Source of the DNA: Spiroplasma endosymbiont of Dioctria linearis
Lineage (GTDB): Bacteria > Bacillota_I > Bacilli_A > Mycoplasmatales > Mycoplasmataceae
Length of the DNA stretch: 64,000 nucleotides
Direction of reading: 5' to 3'
Assembly (NCBI RefSeq): GCF_964030865.1
Contig: NZ_OZ034984.1
Span: 434,001 to 498,000 of the forward strand
The translations under genes and the position numbers were made by a program. Positions within the stretch are counted from its first letter, which is position 1; each line of letters begins with the position of its first letter. Shown here one piece after another: positions 25,704 through 39,853 of the stretch. The notes beneath the pieces are model-generated. The model saw nothing but the letters and a program-made list of their open reading frames with translations, made no database searches and had not been told where the DNA came from.

Positions 25704-26330
25704 TTATTCTGCAGCAGCAGTTACTGTAATTACTATTGAACCAGTTAATAAAGTTGAAGCATCTACTGCAGTTACTGTAAATGTGTCTCCCTCATTTAAT
25801 GCATCAGCATCAGCAGCTTTTGCTTTATATGTAATTGTGTAATCTGTATCTAATACTGCCCCTTTAGCTAGTTCTACTATTGCAGCACTAATTGCTTTTT
25901 CAGCATCTTCTTTATTTGAAGTTGTTGTAATTTCAACTTTTAAATCTTTTAAATCTTTTTTGCTAACTTCAGGTGTTGAATTACCAACTTTAATAGTTTT
26001 TGTACCAGTTAATAATTTTGAATCTTTTGTTGCTGCAACTGTTATTTCAGTTCCATCAGCTAAAGCTTCTTCAGTTTCACCCTCATCAGCTTTTGTTGCT
26101 GCTTTTACGCTAATTGTGTAATCTGTAGTTTCCTTAGCATCTTTTACTTTAGCAGTAACTTGTTTTGCAATTGATTCTTTTGCTTCTTTTTCTGTTAATC
26201 CTGAAGCAACAGTTAATTCCATTTTTGATAAATCAGTTTTAGTTACTTCTTTATCTCCACATGCAACAACAGTTGCACTTGTTGTAGCAACTAAACCAGC
26301 TGCTCCTAATAATCCTAATAATTTTTTCAT
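25704..26330 (-). CDS. Spiralin-type surface lipoprotein
   Basis: A 208 aa lipoprotein. The signal MKKLLGLLGAAGLVATTSAT then VVAC gives lipidation at Cys24. The mature part is Ala/Thr/Lys/Glu-rich, unlike the Asn/Ile-rich proteins around it. It consists of two related ~85 residue repeats, each starting KxDLxxM/LxV, with a DYTISVKA / DYTITYKA strand and ending in LLTGTKTIKV / LLTGSIVITV. This layout, composition and signal match spiralins, the dominant surface proteins of Spiroplasma. A TATAAT box sits 39 bp before the ATG. A strong terminator follows. It likely is highly expressed; that is inferred from the promoter and terminator. Confidence 0.88.
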   Translation of the reverse strand: MKKLLGLLGAAGLVATTSATVVACGDKEVTKTDLSKMELTVASGLTEKEAKESIAKQVTAKVKDAKETTDYTISVKAATKADEGETEEALADGTEITVAATKDSKLLTGTKTIKVGNSTPEVSKKDLKDLKVEITTTSNKEDAEKAISAAIVELAKGAVLDTDYTITYKAKAADADALNEGDTFTVTAVDASTLLTGSIVITVTAAAE

Positions 26331-27786: not shown

Positions 27787-28638
27787 TTATTTTTTATTAT
27801 TTCAACTAAATGAGAAATATGCTCCAGTTAATAAAACTAATGTATACATCATTCCAGTAAAACTAACTAAAGTTAAATTATAATTAAAACTAACTATTTT
27901 TCTATCACTATTTTCAATTATTCAGCTTAAATTTTTAGCAGATGAACTTATTAATCCAATTCACACTGAGTGTTTTTGAGGAAATAAATAACTAAAAATA
28001 ACGACTCCCTTATTTATAGCCATTAAATCAATTGGTAATAAATTATCTGAAAAAACAATGCACAAAATAATAATAATTATTGTTAAACTTTGTGATAATG
28101 CAACACTTTTAATTAGACCACTTATTATTGTTCCAATCGCAATTGAAATTAAAATATTTAAACTAATTGCAAATAAAATACCTAATCACTCACTGAAACT
28201 AATTAAGCCAAAAGAAGAGGCAATACTTTCATCTACTGGCTTAACATATAAAAGTCCTAATATTTCAATAGTAAAAAAACCAACTATAAATGCTACAATT
28301 CCTGCTAAAAAATTAAAAGCTCAAATACTTAATAAAAACTCCATTTTAGATATTCCAGCACTATGTACTCGCTTCAAAAATACTGAGTTTTTTCACTCGG
28401 AAATAGAAATATTTACTAAAAATACGATTGAATATGTTGGAATCATCATAAATAAGAATAATTTTGTTGGTTTATAATTAGCATTCATACCTCCTGTAAA
28501 TCATGTAAAGACACATAAAAAGAATATTGGTATGAAAAATAAATAAACATAAGTTCTGAAATTTTTTAAAATTGAGCTTGATACTAAAAGAAAATTGTTA
28601 AAAAAGTTTTTATTAAATTTTATAAATTTAATATTCAT
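27787..28638 (-). CDS. ABC-2-type transporter permease
   Basis: A 283 aa protein with about six membrane segments (for example VYLFFIPIFFLCVFTW, FLFMMIPTYSIVFLV, FLAGIVAFIVGFF, ILFAISLNILISIAIG). The layout resembles ABC-2 exporter permeases. Its ATG overlaps the ATPase stop by 11 bp, so the two form one transporter. Several Trp are TGA. It is the last gene of the GH85-ATPase-permease operon. The substrate is unknown; export of a lipid, peptide or glycan is possible. Confidence 0.85.
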
Positions 28639-29332
28639 TTATTTCAAACTCTTTTTTATAATATTCAATTAACATTTTTCTTATACTTCCATATTTTTTT
28701 ACAATATTTTTGGTTCTATCATCTAAATAAACTTCACCATTTTTCAAAATTATTACTCGATCGCATAGTTCTTCAACTTCTTCTGGATTATGAGAAATTA
28801 ATACAATTGTTTTTCCTTCGCTTTTTAAATTTCTAAAAAAATCCATTAGCTTTAATTGCATTTTCAAATCCAAACCAGAAATCATTTCATCTAAAAAAAT
28901 AAATTGTGGATTATTTATAACAGCTAAAAATGCATTAACTCTTTGTTTTTGTCCCCCACTCAAATTATTTAAATCTTTTTTTAATAGTTTTTCTATTTCA
29001 AATATTTTAATTAATTCCTTTGTTTTTTCATCTATTTCTTTAAACCAATTTTGTTTAAAGAACTTAACCAATATTTTAGAATTAACTCCCATAGGTCACA
29101 TTCCCTCTTGAAATTGAATTCCAACTTTTTTATAAATATTTTTTTCTCCATCAATTAGTATTTCTCCACTACTTGGTTTTATTTGACCAACAATTAATTC
29201 CATTAATGTTGTTTTTCCTGCTCCATTGGAACCTAAAATTCCCAGGCACTCTCCATTTTTAATTTCAAGATTTATATCTTTAATAACTTTATATTTTCCA
29301 AAGCTCTTTGATAAATTTTTTATTTCTAGCAT
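28628..29332 (-). CDS. ABC transporter ATP-binding protein
   Basis: A 234 aa ATPase. Walker A GILGSNGAGKTTL (residues ~33-45), Q-loop in KVGIQFQEGMWP, signature NLSGGQKQRVNAFLAV, Walker B FIFLDEMISGLD, and H-loop VLISHNPEEVEEL are all complete. It starts 2 bp after the GH85 stop and overlaps the permease start by 11 bp. The transporter would be an exporter of the ABC-2 class. Its co-operon with a surface endoglycosidase is unusual. Confidence 0.95.
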
Positions 29333-29334
29333 TA

Positions 29335-31920
29335 TTACCCCTCCAATTTAAATTTAATTCATTTAACTTCTTTAGTTGCATTATTTTGTATTTTTATATA
29401 AAGCTCATTAGTATCACTTGGAATATCTCTTACAAAATAATCATTTGAGTTAGTTTCTCCAACTCTAACTAGTTTATTTTTTTCTTTAAAATAAACTTCA
29501 TAATAAGAATAGATATCGTTATCTTTTAATAAATTCTCAAAATTAAGTCTAATATTTTGATAATTATTTCCTCTATCAATTAGTAATTCTGATTGAGCTT
29601 TTAATTGTGAAATATCTTCTAAATTCTGATTAATTTTTTCTGAATTAACAGCTAATTGTCCTATATTAATTTTATTTTTTTTATTTGAAGATTTAAATTG
29701 TAAGCCAATTTTGCCTATTATTCCCATTGATGGTGTTATAGTAGTTGTCACTTCTTTTCAACCTTCATCTAAATTCCTAATATTTATATTTGAACTTGAC
29801 CTTATATTTGAATTATTTGATTTTATTTCTTCATATACTATGCTTTCATCTGAAAGTTCATAATTTGATTTATATACAATCGAAACTGTTAATGGTTTAC
29901 TATCTGTATAATTACTTCCCATAATCATTCAATTATAACTTTTATTTGGGTCAAATGTGGCTTCTTCAATTTCTCCATTAATTTTAATTGAATTTGGTTT
30001 TTTAGAGCCAAGAGCAATTGAATTACCTTTCAAATATGGATTTAGATAATCATAATAACCAGTAATATCTGTTTCCTTATCAATTTGTTGTGTTTTGCCA
30101 ATACCATTATTTTGCAAAATCATTCATTTATATGTAGGTTGAACATCAGCAATATTGGTATTACTTCATGGGTAATTTTCTTCAATAATTCTTTCTTTTT
30201 TCTCATTTAATAAAGCAAATTTTGACCCATTACCAGTTGAAAAATTTGTAAAAAATGATTTATTAAAATCGTTTAAAACTGTTCTTTCATTTACTAAATT
30301 TCCTACACCATAACTTAAATAATCATTAAAAGTTGATTCATCATAAGAAACAGAACCCTTATCTTCAATTGAAAGCTGTCTATTTTTTCCAGTATAAATC
30401 ATGTCATCATAATAGTTTTGTAATGTCATTCCATAAATATCACTTTCTTGATTAGGAATTGCATTATTAATTTTATCCATCTCTTGTTGTGCTAAATCAC
30501 TTGCTGTATGTGCAGCAAAAATTGCTAAAGAATTATAAGAATTAGCTTGCTGTGCACCATTTTTAATATAGGTTCATTTATTATTATTTTTATCTTCTCT
30601 TTCCTTTGAGACATCACTTGCTTTATATTCATTTCCATTTTCATCAAAATGTTTATAAACAAGATCTCTAAGATCTCTTTGCCCTATTTTATTTTTATCA
30701 TAAAATATTTTTCCATTAATTCAACCACCCAAATTATACATATTAAAAATTTTGTGTGAACTCTTTTCAATTTTATTTTTTTTAATATAATCAAGAGATT
30801 TATTTGTAGTAATTCCAAAGTCACTTAAAAAATAATCTGTGTTTTTGTGCAGTGCTTCAGACTCCTGACTTGCTGTTTTACCAGTTGAATCTAATTCTAA
30901 ATTTCCATTATTTTTATATGAAAATAATACTAATTTATTAATCCTCTCGTCTTTTGAAGATTTAACCTTTTCATTCCACTGTTTCATAATTTCAATAACA
31001 GTTTTATAATTTAAAATATAACCATCTTCAAAATAACCATTAGGTTCATTATTTCAAAATCAACCATCAAAAGCCAAATTAACTGCCATATTAATTAAAA
31101 TATCAACTATTAGATAATTTCCCTGAGCATCCCTCTTTAAAAATTTTTCTAATGTTTCTTTCTTAAGACCATGATAACCATCTAAGAAAATATTTCCCAG
31201 TATTTTGGTTCCATTTAAATGAGCTTTTTCAACTTCATTTTTACCTGGGGGAATAATTATTCCCTCATCAGCTGAACCTGCTCAACTAACCATAATATCA
31301 TTGTATTGATAATTATTAAAACTTCTTGAATAAGTTCTTTTATTTCCGATAATCGTATTTTCATTAGAAGTGCTATTAATAATTGTTGTCATATTCATTT
31401 GTTGAATTTTTTCGTCTTGAGTCTCAACTCATTTAGAAGCGACATTAGTTCTTTTTTGAAGTTCAATTCTTGATTTATTATATTTAGCATCCAAATCTGA
31501 TTTGTAGTTTCATTCTAATATACTATTTACCTTATCAAAAATCTCATTTCTTTTGATTTCCATTATATCTTTTTTCCTATTACCATTTGGTAAAAACTTT
31601 GAATTTAATGGAACACCAGTTGGAACTTGCTTTAAAACTTCTAAGACTGTTTTAAAGCCTGTATTTAAGTATTTATAATTTAAATATCTATTTCTTTCTT
31701 CAATTTTTAATTTTATTCCTTCATCTGACACTGATGAAGGAATATCATGTAATAACCTTTTATTTTTATCATAGTATGGTTCTTCTTTTTTTCAGTTGTA
31801 ATCTGAAATTTTTGAAAGATCCGTACCATAATTAAATTTATTGTTTCCACAAGAAACTGTATATACTAAAAAAGGTATTACTATTGTTACTGATAACAAT
31901 GTAAATACTATTTTTTTCAT
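29335..31920 (-). CDS. Surface lipoprotein endo-beta-N-acetylglucosaminidase (GH85)
   Basis: An 861 aa protein. A lipoprotein signal (MKKIVFTLLSVTIVIPFLVY then TVSC, Cys24) anchors it outside. The GH85 barrel follows: DIMVSWAGSADEGIIIPPG near residue 213, AHLNGTKILGNIF, and AFDGWFWNNEPNGYFEDGY near residue 282, which carries the conserved Asn-x-Glu catalytic pair of the family. The C-terminal half has beta-rich modules that look like carbohydrate-binding and Fn3-like domains (YYEVYFKEKNKLVRVGETN). These enzymes cut between the two GlcNAc of N-glycan cores. TTGAGGGGAA precedes the ATG at 31920; an alternative ATG at 31924 is out of frame. First gene of an operon with an ABC exporter. Confidence 0.85.
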
Positions 31921-31950
31921 TCATTTTATTCCCCTCAAAATAAATTTAAC

Positions 31951-31980
31951 AAAAAAAAAAAAAAAGTAAATAACTTTTTT
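31951..31980 (-). terminator. Terminator after yqeH with 15-base T tail
   Basis: An 8-bp stem (31960-31967 with 31973-31980), followed on the minus strand by 15 T's (A15 at 31951-31965). It lies only 31 bp before the GH85 start, so a promoter for GH85 must sit inside or overlap the T tract, or the gene relies on read-through. Confidence 0.75.
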
Positions 31981-31995
31981 TAATTTTTTTCTAAC

Positions 31996-33300
31996 TTATA
32001 TCATTGCTTCTAACTGAGTTACTTTTATTCCATATTCTGTTTTAGGTACAGTTATTTCTAATTTCATACCCTTATAAGTCTTAAAGTTTATTCAACCCAA
32101 CCCTGAAATATGTAAGTCTATTTTTTTCTCGTCATTATATACAAAACTGTGAATTTCAAAATCACTGTCACTTGAAAGTAATCTTGGAGATAAATTGTAA
32201 CGATTCTTTTTAAAGTATTGTTGTGCATTTACTTTTTTTGTTCTATGTAATGGCATTTGTTTATTTATATAAAAGTGAAAGTTAGTTTTAGTTGGTTTAT
32301 GATTTTTTTCATTAATTGCTTGACCTTCGACAAAACTAAATCAAGCAAGTCCTCCATAAAAAATTGATTGACCAGCATTTAACTGATAAGTCACTTGTTT
32401 AATTTCTTTTTTAAAAAAGAAAAAATCTCAGTAATTTGGTGCAGTTGCAATAGCTATATGATTGTGTTTTACAAGACCAGGTGTATCATACACAAAGTTG
32501 TTTTCTGTAAAATTAATTTTAATTTTATCTAAAGTTGTATTAACATATTTTGAAGTAACAATTGAAGGAATTTGATTATTATATGTTAAACAAGCATTTA
32601 TTAAACTTGATTTACCAGCATTTGAAATTCCAACAATATATTGATCATACTCTACTGATTTCAATTCATTTACTAATGGAAAAATATAGTCACCTTTAAG
32701 AGATGAAGTAAAGATAATTTTTGAACCAGCAATTGGTGAATCTTCAAAGAACTTCTTAACATAATTTAAAATTTTCATTTTTTTTACTGCTTTTGGAAAT
32801 AAATCAATTTTATTAACTAAAATAACCACTTCCTTTTTTGATATTAATTTTTCTAATCAAGTTAATCTACTTCCAGGTAAATCAAACATATCAACTACAT
32901 AGTAATATCTAATTTTATTTTTAGTTTGATTTATTTCATCAATAATATCAATAAAATCTTTATCATTAATTTCTTGTTCTACTAATTTATTGTAGTATTT
33001 TATTTTAAAACATCTTAAACATAAATCTTGCTGTTCAATATTTAAACTGAACCCTGGTAATCTTTTATCAACAGTTTGCAACTGTTTCCCACAACCAATA
33101 CATTTTTTAGGTGCCTTTGATTGATAATTTGTAGTATTACCAATACCAGGTTTAGCTTCTGTTAGACTAACTTTACTTCTTTGTTTAATTTTAATTGTTT
33201 CTGGTTCTTCACTATTAGCATTAATTTGTAAGGCTTTATCTTCCAAATCTTCTAATTGTTTTTCAATTTCATTTAATTTTTCATTATTAGAGAATTTCAT
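31996..33300 (-). CDS. yqeH: Circularly permuted GTPase YqeH
   Basis: A 434 aa ribosome-assembly GTPase (30S maturation). The N-terminal zinc finger has CIGCGKQLQ...LCLRC. The G motifs are in permuted order: VNKIDLFPKA (G4), then VGISNAGKSSLIN (G1, near residue 227), then YDTPGLVKHN (G3). A long C-terminal domain follows. I chose the ATG at 33300, which has GGAGGT 5 bases upstream and overlaps the end of yqeG by 14 bp; longer starts are in the yqeG reading region without ribosome sites. Trp are TGA. Confidence 0.93.
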
Positions 33301-37724: not shown

Positions 37725-37925
37725 TTAAATCAATTGTAAATGTTCTCTTTTTTTATTATAAATATAGTCTTGAAGATTATTTCTTTTTAAAATGAATTCT
37801 TTGAACTTAATTTTAAAACTCTCCAATGAGTCAAAACTATTTCTATAATCTTTGAAGAAAATATCTTTATATCATCCATTTAAAGATTCAGTAGGAGAAT
37901 TGCGTTTAAATCCAACATCAGACAT
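37725..37925 (-). pseudogene. C-terminal fragment of a transposase (integrase-core, IS3-like)
   Basis: A 66-codon open segment reading MSDVGFKRNSPTESLNGWYK ... ending in IYNKKREHLQL. This layout, a NSPTESLNG motif followed 40 residues later by YNKKREH, matches the last part of IS3-type transposases (the catalytic Glu near 'ESL' and YNxxRxH). The rest of the element is absent. Upstream, the frame stops abruptly at an unrelated plus-strand segment, so it is a truncated relic. Short inverted pieces (GGTTGT at about 37636, ACAACC at 37697) could be leftover ends. Confidence 0.6.
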
Positions 37926-38365: not shown

Positions 38366-39730
38366 TTATTTAAATTTCTCTGGAATAAAATCCTCTTGTA
38401 AACCAGAATTATTTGCAAAGTCAACTCATAATATTACACAATCCACATTTCATTTTGAAATATTTTGATTAAAATTATGAGCATTAGTAAACATATAACT
38501 CATATCAAATACTTTTGATGTATCTCATCTACTAATATCTTGATTAAAGTTTAAAGCTTCAAAAAACATATATTGCATGAAGTTTGCATTTGATGTATCT
38601 CAATTACCAATATCTTGATTAAATTTATCTGCTTTATAGAAAACATGACTCATATAAGTTACACCCGATGTATCTCATCTACCAATATCTTGATTAAAAC
38701 TATAAGCATTATAAAACATAAAACCTAAAGTTCATACACTTGATGTATTTCAACTACCAATATCTTGATTAAAATTAGTAGCAAATTGAAACATTCCTGT
38801 CATTTCTCTTACATTTAATGTATCTCATCCACCAATATCTTGATTAAAACTAGAAGCATTATAAAACATATTACTCATATTTATCACACTTGATGTATTT
38901 CAGCTACCAATATCTTGATTAAAACTTTTAGCACTTCAAAACATACTACTCATATCTACTACGTTTGATGTATTTCATCTACCAATATCTTGATTAAAAT
39001 CATAAGCTTCCATAAACATACTTTTCATATCGGTTACATTCAATGTATCTCAATTACCAATATCTTGATTAAACTCAGAAGCAGAATTAAACATACCCTG
39101 CATATTTGTTACATTCGATGTATCTCAATTACCAATATCTTGATTAAACTTATAAGCACTTCAAAACATAAAAGTCATATCTGCTACGCTTGATGTATTT
39201 CAACTACCAATATCTTGATTAAAATTAAATGCTAAATTAAACATTCTACTCATATTTGTTACATTTGATGTATTTCAATTACTAATATCTTGATTAAAAT
39301 TATTAGCTGCATAAAACATTCAACTCATATTTGTTATATTAGATGTATCTCATTCTTCAATTCCATAAATTTTTTCATTCTTATTATATCTAAATAAATT
39401 TTCCAATGATGTAATTTCTTTTGGTAATACACTTGGCATTTCCCTTACACGACAATTTATTATTGTTGTTCCATCACTTCAAACACCCATTTTTATAATT
39501 TTTTGAACATCAACACCTAAAAAATTTTTTTCTTCTGTTTGATGCACAATACCATTACTATCAACATATATAGTTACTTGATCTACTTTTGGTAAAACAT
39601 TTTCATCATTTGTTATCACAGGATAATCATATATTAATTCATCAGAGTTTTTTGAAACCTCATTAACTACTGGAGAAATATTAGTCATTCCAAATGTACT
39701 ATATGCTAATAAACATAACAATTTAAACAT
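38366..39730 (-). CDS. BspA/DUF285-type repeat surface protein, 454 aa
   Basis: The N-terminus MFKLLCLLAYSTFGMTNISP could be a short signal peptide. After ~110 residues come twelve full 25-residue repeats with the consensus W(D/N)TSNVTxMSxMFxxAxxFNQDIGx, and a degenerate thirteenth. These are DUF285 repeats, found in mollicute surface proteins; they form leucine-rich-repeat-like solenoids. All repeat Trp are TGA, so the gene is invisible under the standard code. GAAAGG precedes the ATG, with a TATAAT -10 box at 39798-39803. No C-terminal anchor is seen. A flanking transposase fragment and gene relics suggest an acquired accessory locus. Confidence 0.9.
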
Positions 39731-39853
39731 ATTTACATTACCTTTCTTTCAACTGCCCACCCTACCAACCTTTTACATCTTTTCCTTAATTTTTATTATT
39801 ATAATTTCAAAATAAACTAAAATGTTTTTAAAAATAAATGCAAAAAATTTTAA

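Follow-up and report, generated by a model that had tools for sequence, protein, structure and literature searches.

A predicted surface endo-beta-N-acetylglucosaminidase of family GH85 and an ABC-2 (type V) transporter are encoded together in the window, by which we mean the whole 64,000-nucleotide stretch of the Spiroplasma endosymbiont of Dioctria linearis analysed here. Comparison of GH85 loci leaves us in little doubt that the two constitute a dedicated, co-inherited module. Its parts belong to known families, and what appears to be new is that, across Spiroplasma and related genera, a glycosidase has a type V ABC transporter of its own with which it co-evolves. The literature that we searched, which records GH85 itself in S. 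mirum and S. poulsonii, does not mention the link to a transporter; the novelty is provisional, because that search excluded subscription papers.

Organization of the operon

When open reading frames are read with code 4 (TGA as Trp), the genes for the GH85 lipoprotein, the ABC ATPase and the ABC-2 permease are tightly packed in an operon of three genes (Table 1). A gap of 2 bp separates the GH85 and ATPase genes, and the ATPase and permease genes overlap by 11 bp. The first-pass annotation had described this arrangement from the letters, and it is confirmed by the coordinates and the family matches. An Rfam search of the window returned no match, and promoter and terminator scans gave signals at or near background.

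In a relative without GH85 (G179), yqeH (87% identical to its counterpart in the window) directly adjoins the gene for the ROK glucokinase (95% identical), and this empty site lacks exactly the GH85, ATPase and permease genes. The yqeH gene lies beside ROK without the cassette in five of the six relatives tested, G179 among them; in the sixth (L173), yqeH was not seen in the stretch examined. We therefore ruled out the ROK kinase as a member of the unit and regard it as a neighbour, not a partner. A gene for a spiralin-domain lipoprotein (window 25704-26330) lies just past the ROK glucokinase gene. Elsewhere in the window, positions 38366-39760 encode a protein in which DUF285 repeats form four stretches (427 bits), near which a short possible transposase remnant without a Pfam match is located (37725-37925).

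Table 1. Features of the cassette in the window and gene orders of related cassettes.
Feature	Position	Strand	Basis or remark
GH85 endo-beta-N-acetylglucosaminidase, surface lipoprotein, 861 aa from ATG	29335..31920	-	PF03644 and Endo-A alignment
ABC ATPase, 234 aa	28628..29332	-	PF00005, 92.8 bits
ABC-2 (type V) permease, 283 aa, six transmembrane helices	27787..28638	-	PF12698, 24.3 bits (below cut-off), and fold search
Catalytic Asn290-x-Glu292 of GH85	31045..31053	-	Alignment to Endo-A N171/E173
Stretch absent from relative G179, extent approximate	27819..32006	no strand	Between yqeH and ROK glucokinase gene
Type A (window type)			GH85-ATPase-permease
Type D			ATPase-permease-GH85
Type B			c3-ATPase-permease-GH85-permease; in some cases the ATPase follows the set or is encoded on the opposite strand
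Type C			c4-ATPase-permease-permease-GH85
Type C'			ATPase-permease-permease-c4-GH85
Type E			c25-ATPase-permease-GH85-permease
Second cassette of the window's genome, type C	L090:6091-12758 (C1:766-773 kb)		
c4	L090:11391-12758		
c3	L060:11149-12156		
c25	L061:4402-5625		

The GH85 enzyme

The assignment to GH85 stands on a PF03644 match of 80 bits, well above the cut-off of 22.2. A lipobox (TVSC) occupies residues 21-24. The motif FDGWFWNNE, which had been picked out at first pass as the catalytic region, covers residues 284-292, and its N290 and E292 align with N171 and E173 of the Arthrobacter enzyme Endo-A (PDB code 3fha). This alignment has an E value of 1e-28, or 1.8e-52 when a 25-sequence GH85 profile is used, and the profile alignment takes in the C-terminal region as well. 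The catalytic Glu is thus located by alignment; the structure model (pLDDT 49.7) was too poor for use and for that reason was kept out of the fold search. Among the order's GH85 proteins (n = 59), the catalytic Asn is invariant and the Glu is retained in all but one (58).

The protein consists of a catalytic domain and a β-rich, Fn3-like C-terminal region (Fn3 match 7jgt). Both can be aligned with Endo-A, from which the window protein differs in an N-terminal extension, a long unaligned stretch from about residue 300 to 555, a lipoprotein anchor and a dedicated transporter. GH85 enzymes cleave the bond that joins the two GlcNAc residues of the core, which yields an oligosaccharide (PMC5215778, in line with what is known of the family). 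The window enzyme may plausibly trim host glycoproteins, with hydrolysis as the predicted reaction.

The two deepest-branching GH85 proteins, both in G181 (L033:6908-8926 and L032:7108-9387), have no linked transporter and adjoin c27-family lipoproteins. That of L033 is the lone exception at the catalytic Glu, with Gln in its place; the other is encoded near GH38 mannosidase matches, a setting suggestive of a feeding role apart from the cassette.

The ABC transporter

In the window ATPase, the Walker A, Q-loop, signature, Walker B Glu and H-loop are all intact, and the Walker A Lys, the Walker B Asp-Glu and the H-loop His are invariant in all 51 cassette ATPases. The permease scores below the PF12698 (ABC2_membrane_3) cut-off of 31.6, so that Pfam alone leaves its class unsettled. 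A fold search with the permease model (pLDDT 74) returned NosY, TarG, KpsM, Wzm and ABCG (probability 1.00, TM ~0.6), and nearly all of the top 50 matches are type V transporters. On these matches, with E values above 1e-3, we assign the modelled permease to the six-TM type V/ABC-2 fold.

Two positions distinguish permeases that are linked to GH85. Asp198 is present in 92% of the linked permeases versus Gly in 100% of the unlinked ones (n = 20), and Trp226 in 99% versus Phe in 55%. By analogy with the topology of type V folds, the segment between TM5 and TM6, which carries both residues, is expected on the outer side of the membrane, and we infer that it could contact the enzyme or its substrate.

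Linkage across the order

We retrieved the surroundings of GH85 genes, called the genes and classed the neighbours. GH85 was found in 40 of 320 genomes of the order. In the window's family, a related ABC-2 permease lies within 5 kb of 53 of the 57 GH85 matches, which include a few fragments of one gene. With about 0.65 unlinked permeases per genome, only ~0.3 linked matches would be expected by chance, and chance neighbourhood is thereby ruled out. The transporter also accompanies all five GH85 loci of a second family, f11 (G311-G319, S. platyhelix included). Elsewhere, this ABC-2 family was linked to GH85 at none of 13 loci (10 outside the order and three in the mycoplasma family f7). Two of the three mycoplasma loci (L122 and L046) carry a MalFG-type importer instead, one of them with its ATPase (OB_MalK), while the third lies on a 4.7 kb contig. 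An ABC-2 transporter had at first struck the annotators as an odd operon partner, and beside these sugar importers it is indeed odd. In a Herbinix MAG (Clostridia; L129:3075-9101), GH85 is encoded downstream of an ATPase and two ABC-2 permeases of an unrelated family (PF06182), with an RCC1-repeat gene between; this is possibly a parallel pairing, but we take the single distant case as coincidence.

The order GH85-ATPase-permease is kept in many relatives, and further arrangements occur (Table 1). Overlaps or gaps of at most 20 bp separate the cassette genes at 131 of 133 junctions, the overlaps being overstated because starts were set at the first possible codon. Types B and E place the GH85 gene between two permease genes. 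Types A and D lack the N-terminally anchored extracellular proteins c3, c4 and c25, for which Pfam returned no family above the cut-off and which may form one divergent family (profile comparison probability 63-85). The window's genome holds a second cassette, with c4, an ATPase, two permeases and a GH85 with an intact FDGWMINNE motif.

Where a cassette is damaged, its enzyme and transporter parts have often both decayed, as in L079, L069 and S. poulsonii L126; L121 is a counter-case, with GH85 split and the transporter intact. In S. poulsonii MSRO_BK (L126:3248-12084), repeated copies of IS-like transposase genes interrupt both the ATPase gene and the GH85 gene, although the blind-killing strain is reported to up-regulate an endo-beta-N-acetylglucosaminidase gene (PMC7187355). 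Two GH85 proteins derived within the cassette clade (L062 and L047_2) have no transporter, so that the enzyme can persist without it.

These two proteins bear on the proposal, raised in part at first pass, that the role of the transporter is to export, anchor or release the GH85 lipoprotein. One-to-one co-evolution (see below) and the coupled gene order would suit such a role. However, nearly all transporter-linked GH85s have their own lipoprotein signal or N-terminal anchor, and L062 and L047_2 bear the same signal while being unlinked, which makes export of the enzyme very doubtful.

Co-evolution of enzyme and transporter

In the ATPase tree (90 rows), all 39 unlinked ATPases fall on one side of a single branch (support 100/99), and the 20 sampled unlinked permeases are likewise set apart across one branch of their tree (support 99), which corresponds to the same single change. 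A transporter of the linked lineage without GH85 was therefore not found in these genomes. Away from GH85, the ABC-2 transporters of the family are plain ATPase-permease pairs with no conserved extracellular partner.

A mirror-tree comparison of GH85 and ATPase distances in 51 pairs gave r = 0.87, a value reached in none of 2000 free shuffles and in none of 2000 shuffles within the 14 genomes that have two or three cassettes. The cassette types are coherent in both the GH85 and ATPase trees, which agree in the branching order of types E, B, C and C'. In each of the two trees, members of f11 group beside the same relatives from the window's family, a pattern that would fit a transfer of the entire cassette. 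Judged from these trees and distances, enzyme and transporter have been inherited together and co-evolve as a unit.

An alternative with which these trees are at odds is that the transporter extrudes membrane-active host peptides in the manner of LanFEG, and that GH85 is an independent surface enzyme of the same operon. The LanFEG/LanI immunity set consists of an ATPase, two permeases and an anchored protein, a composition that the larger cassettes resemble, and a lantibiotic-protection model is among the many ABC matches of the ATPase. A transporter of this kind would, however, be expected often without GH85, and no unlinked ATPase belongs to the linked lineage (0/39). The within-genome co-evolution moreover speaks against independence of GH85 and ATPase. 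Of the readings considered here, we give peptide extrusion the least credence.

Possible roles in feeding and import

The importers at the mycoplasma loci suggest that the ABC-2 transporter might import the oligosaccharide released by GH85, in place of the type I importer of streptococci and mycoplasmas. To our knowledge, bacterial type V transporters are exporters or act mechanically, which counts against import, and the unlinked homologues resemble plain ABC-2 exporters. Support comes from the EndoD/ABCNG (NgtS)/SpGH92 pathway of S. pneumoniae, in which a surface GH85 likewise cuts the N-glycan core and is functionally paired with an ABC transporter, NgtS, that takes up its product (PMC5215778). 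The anchored extracellular protein of types B, C, C' and E could also bind substrate. The pneumococcal pathway, in contrast, relies on a type I importer, a solute-binding protein and mannosidases. Type I (BPD) permeases and a solute-binding protein are present at L122 and L046 but were not found beside the window GH85, and the window type, like type D, has no binding protein. Searches of the window's genome for GH38, GH92, GH125 and GH20 found none; across the family (60 genomes), GH92 and GH125 were each found in 0/60, GH20 in 1/60 and GH38 in 15/60. Taken together, import seems unlikely to us.

With these four families as those searched, a feeding role for the cassette is weakly supported. 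The idea put forward in the first-pass annotation that NagA, a NagB-like protein and the ROK kinase could use released GlcNAc is not borne out either, since the product of GH85 is an oligosaccharide and not free GlcNAc; the GH85-free relative keeps ROK without the cassette, and the genome lacks the four families.

Discussion

As our first choice, ahead of the four rival explanations, we tentatively propose a mechanical coupling of the ABC-2 transporter to GH85, aware that it may well prove wrong. Anchored as a lipoprotein to the outside of the single membrane, the enzyme would cut the chitobiose core of host N-glycans, and a homodimeric ABC-2 permease and its ATPase would work with this enzyme alone. 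The permease would use its extracellular segment between TM5 and TM6 to meet GH85, and movements of the transporter powered by ATP could then work on the enzyme or a bound glycoprotein in loading, release, activation or turnover. Such work would be of the kind proposed for NosDFY-NosZ, rather than secretion of something unrelated, and its purpose would be the remodelling of host glycoproteins at the symbiont surface and not bulk sugar feeding.

We favour mechanical coupling because of the family-wide linkage, the close spacing of the cassette genes, the place of GH85 between permease genes in types B and E, the joint inheritance and decay, the residues D198 and W226 confined to linked permeases, and the presence of NosY among the closest folds. 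It is weakened by the NosY match being weak and common to lipid and polysaccharide exporters, by the persistence of L062 and L047_2 without a transporter, and by the extra anchored protein of types B, C, C' and E, which the window type lacks. In NosDFY(L)-NosZ, an ATPase and an ABC-2 permease are likewise encoded with an extracellular enzyme; in contrast, the cassette has no gene for a NosD β-helix and no copper chemistry, and mechanical work is here a proposal only.

The fold matches also lend themselves to another explanation, in which the transporter would supply the outer leaflet with an acceptor, a lipid or another molecule, and host N-glycans would be transglycosylated by GH85 onto this acceptor or onto surface proteins. 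GH85 enzymes are known to act as transglycosylases, TarG, KpsM and Wzm are movers of glycolipids, and the genome lacks a glycan-degrading set. Mycoplasmas, moreover, use exogenous oligosaccharide to hexosylate their surface proteins by means of an unknown enzyme (PMC12453214), at most an analogy because the species concerned have no known GH85 link. The acceptor, however, is still putative, and the enzyme has the catalytic Asn and Glu typical of an ordinary hydrolase; decoration of an acceptor is in our judgement decidedly unlikely. A stronger form, in which the cassette is a self-decoration machine for the surface, with an acceptor (lipid or protein) offered by the ABC-2 transporter and captured host N-glycans transferred onto it by GH85, we hold to be very improbable. 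If true, it would mean that a symbiont without a wall is clad in sugars taken from its own host.

Compared by description and not by sequence, the module also recalls the MIB-MIP system of Mollicutes, which processes host glycoproteins at the surface and has an ATPase gene cluster adjacent in most species (PMC11213901). There, however, the enzyme is a protease and not a glycosidase, and the cluster is ATP-synthase-like and not an ABC transporter.

The module opens two questions to experiment, namely in what way insect symbionts without a cell wall act on the glycoproteins of their hosts, and whether a transporter of the ABC-2 type can be of service to an enzyme outside the cell. The gene set may also shape the symbiosis; in this respect, an endo-beta-N-acetylglucosaminidase gene is reported to be up-regulated in a blind-killing strain of S. 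poulsonii (PMC7187355).
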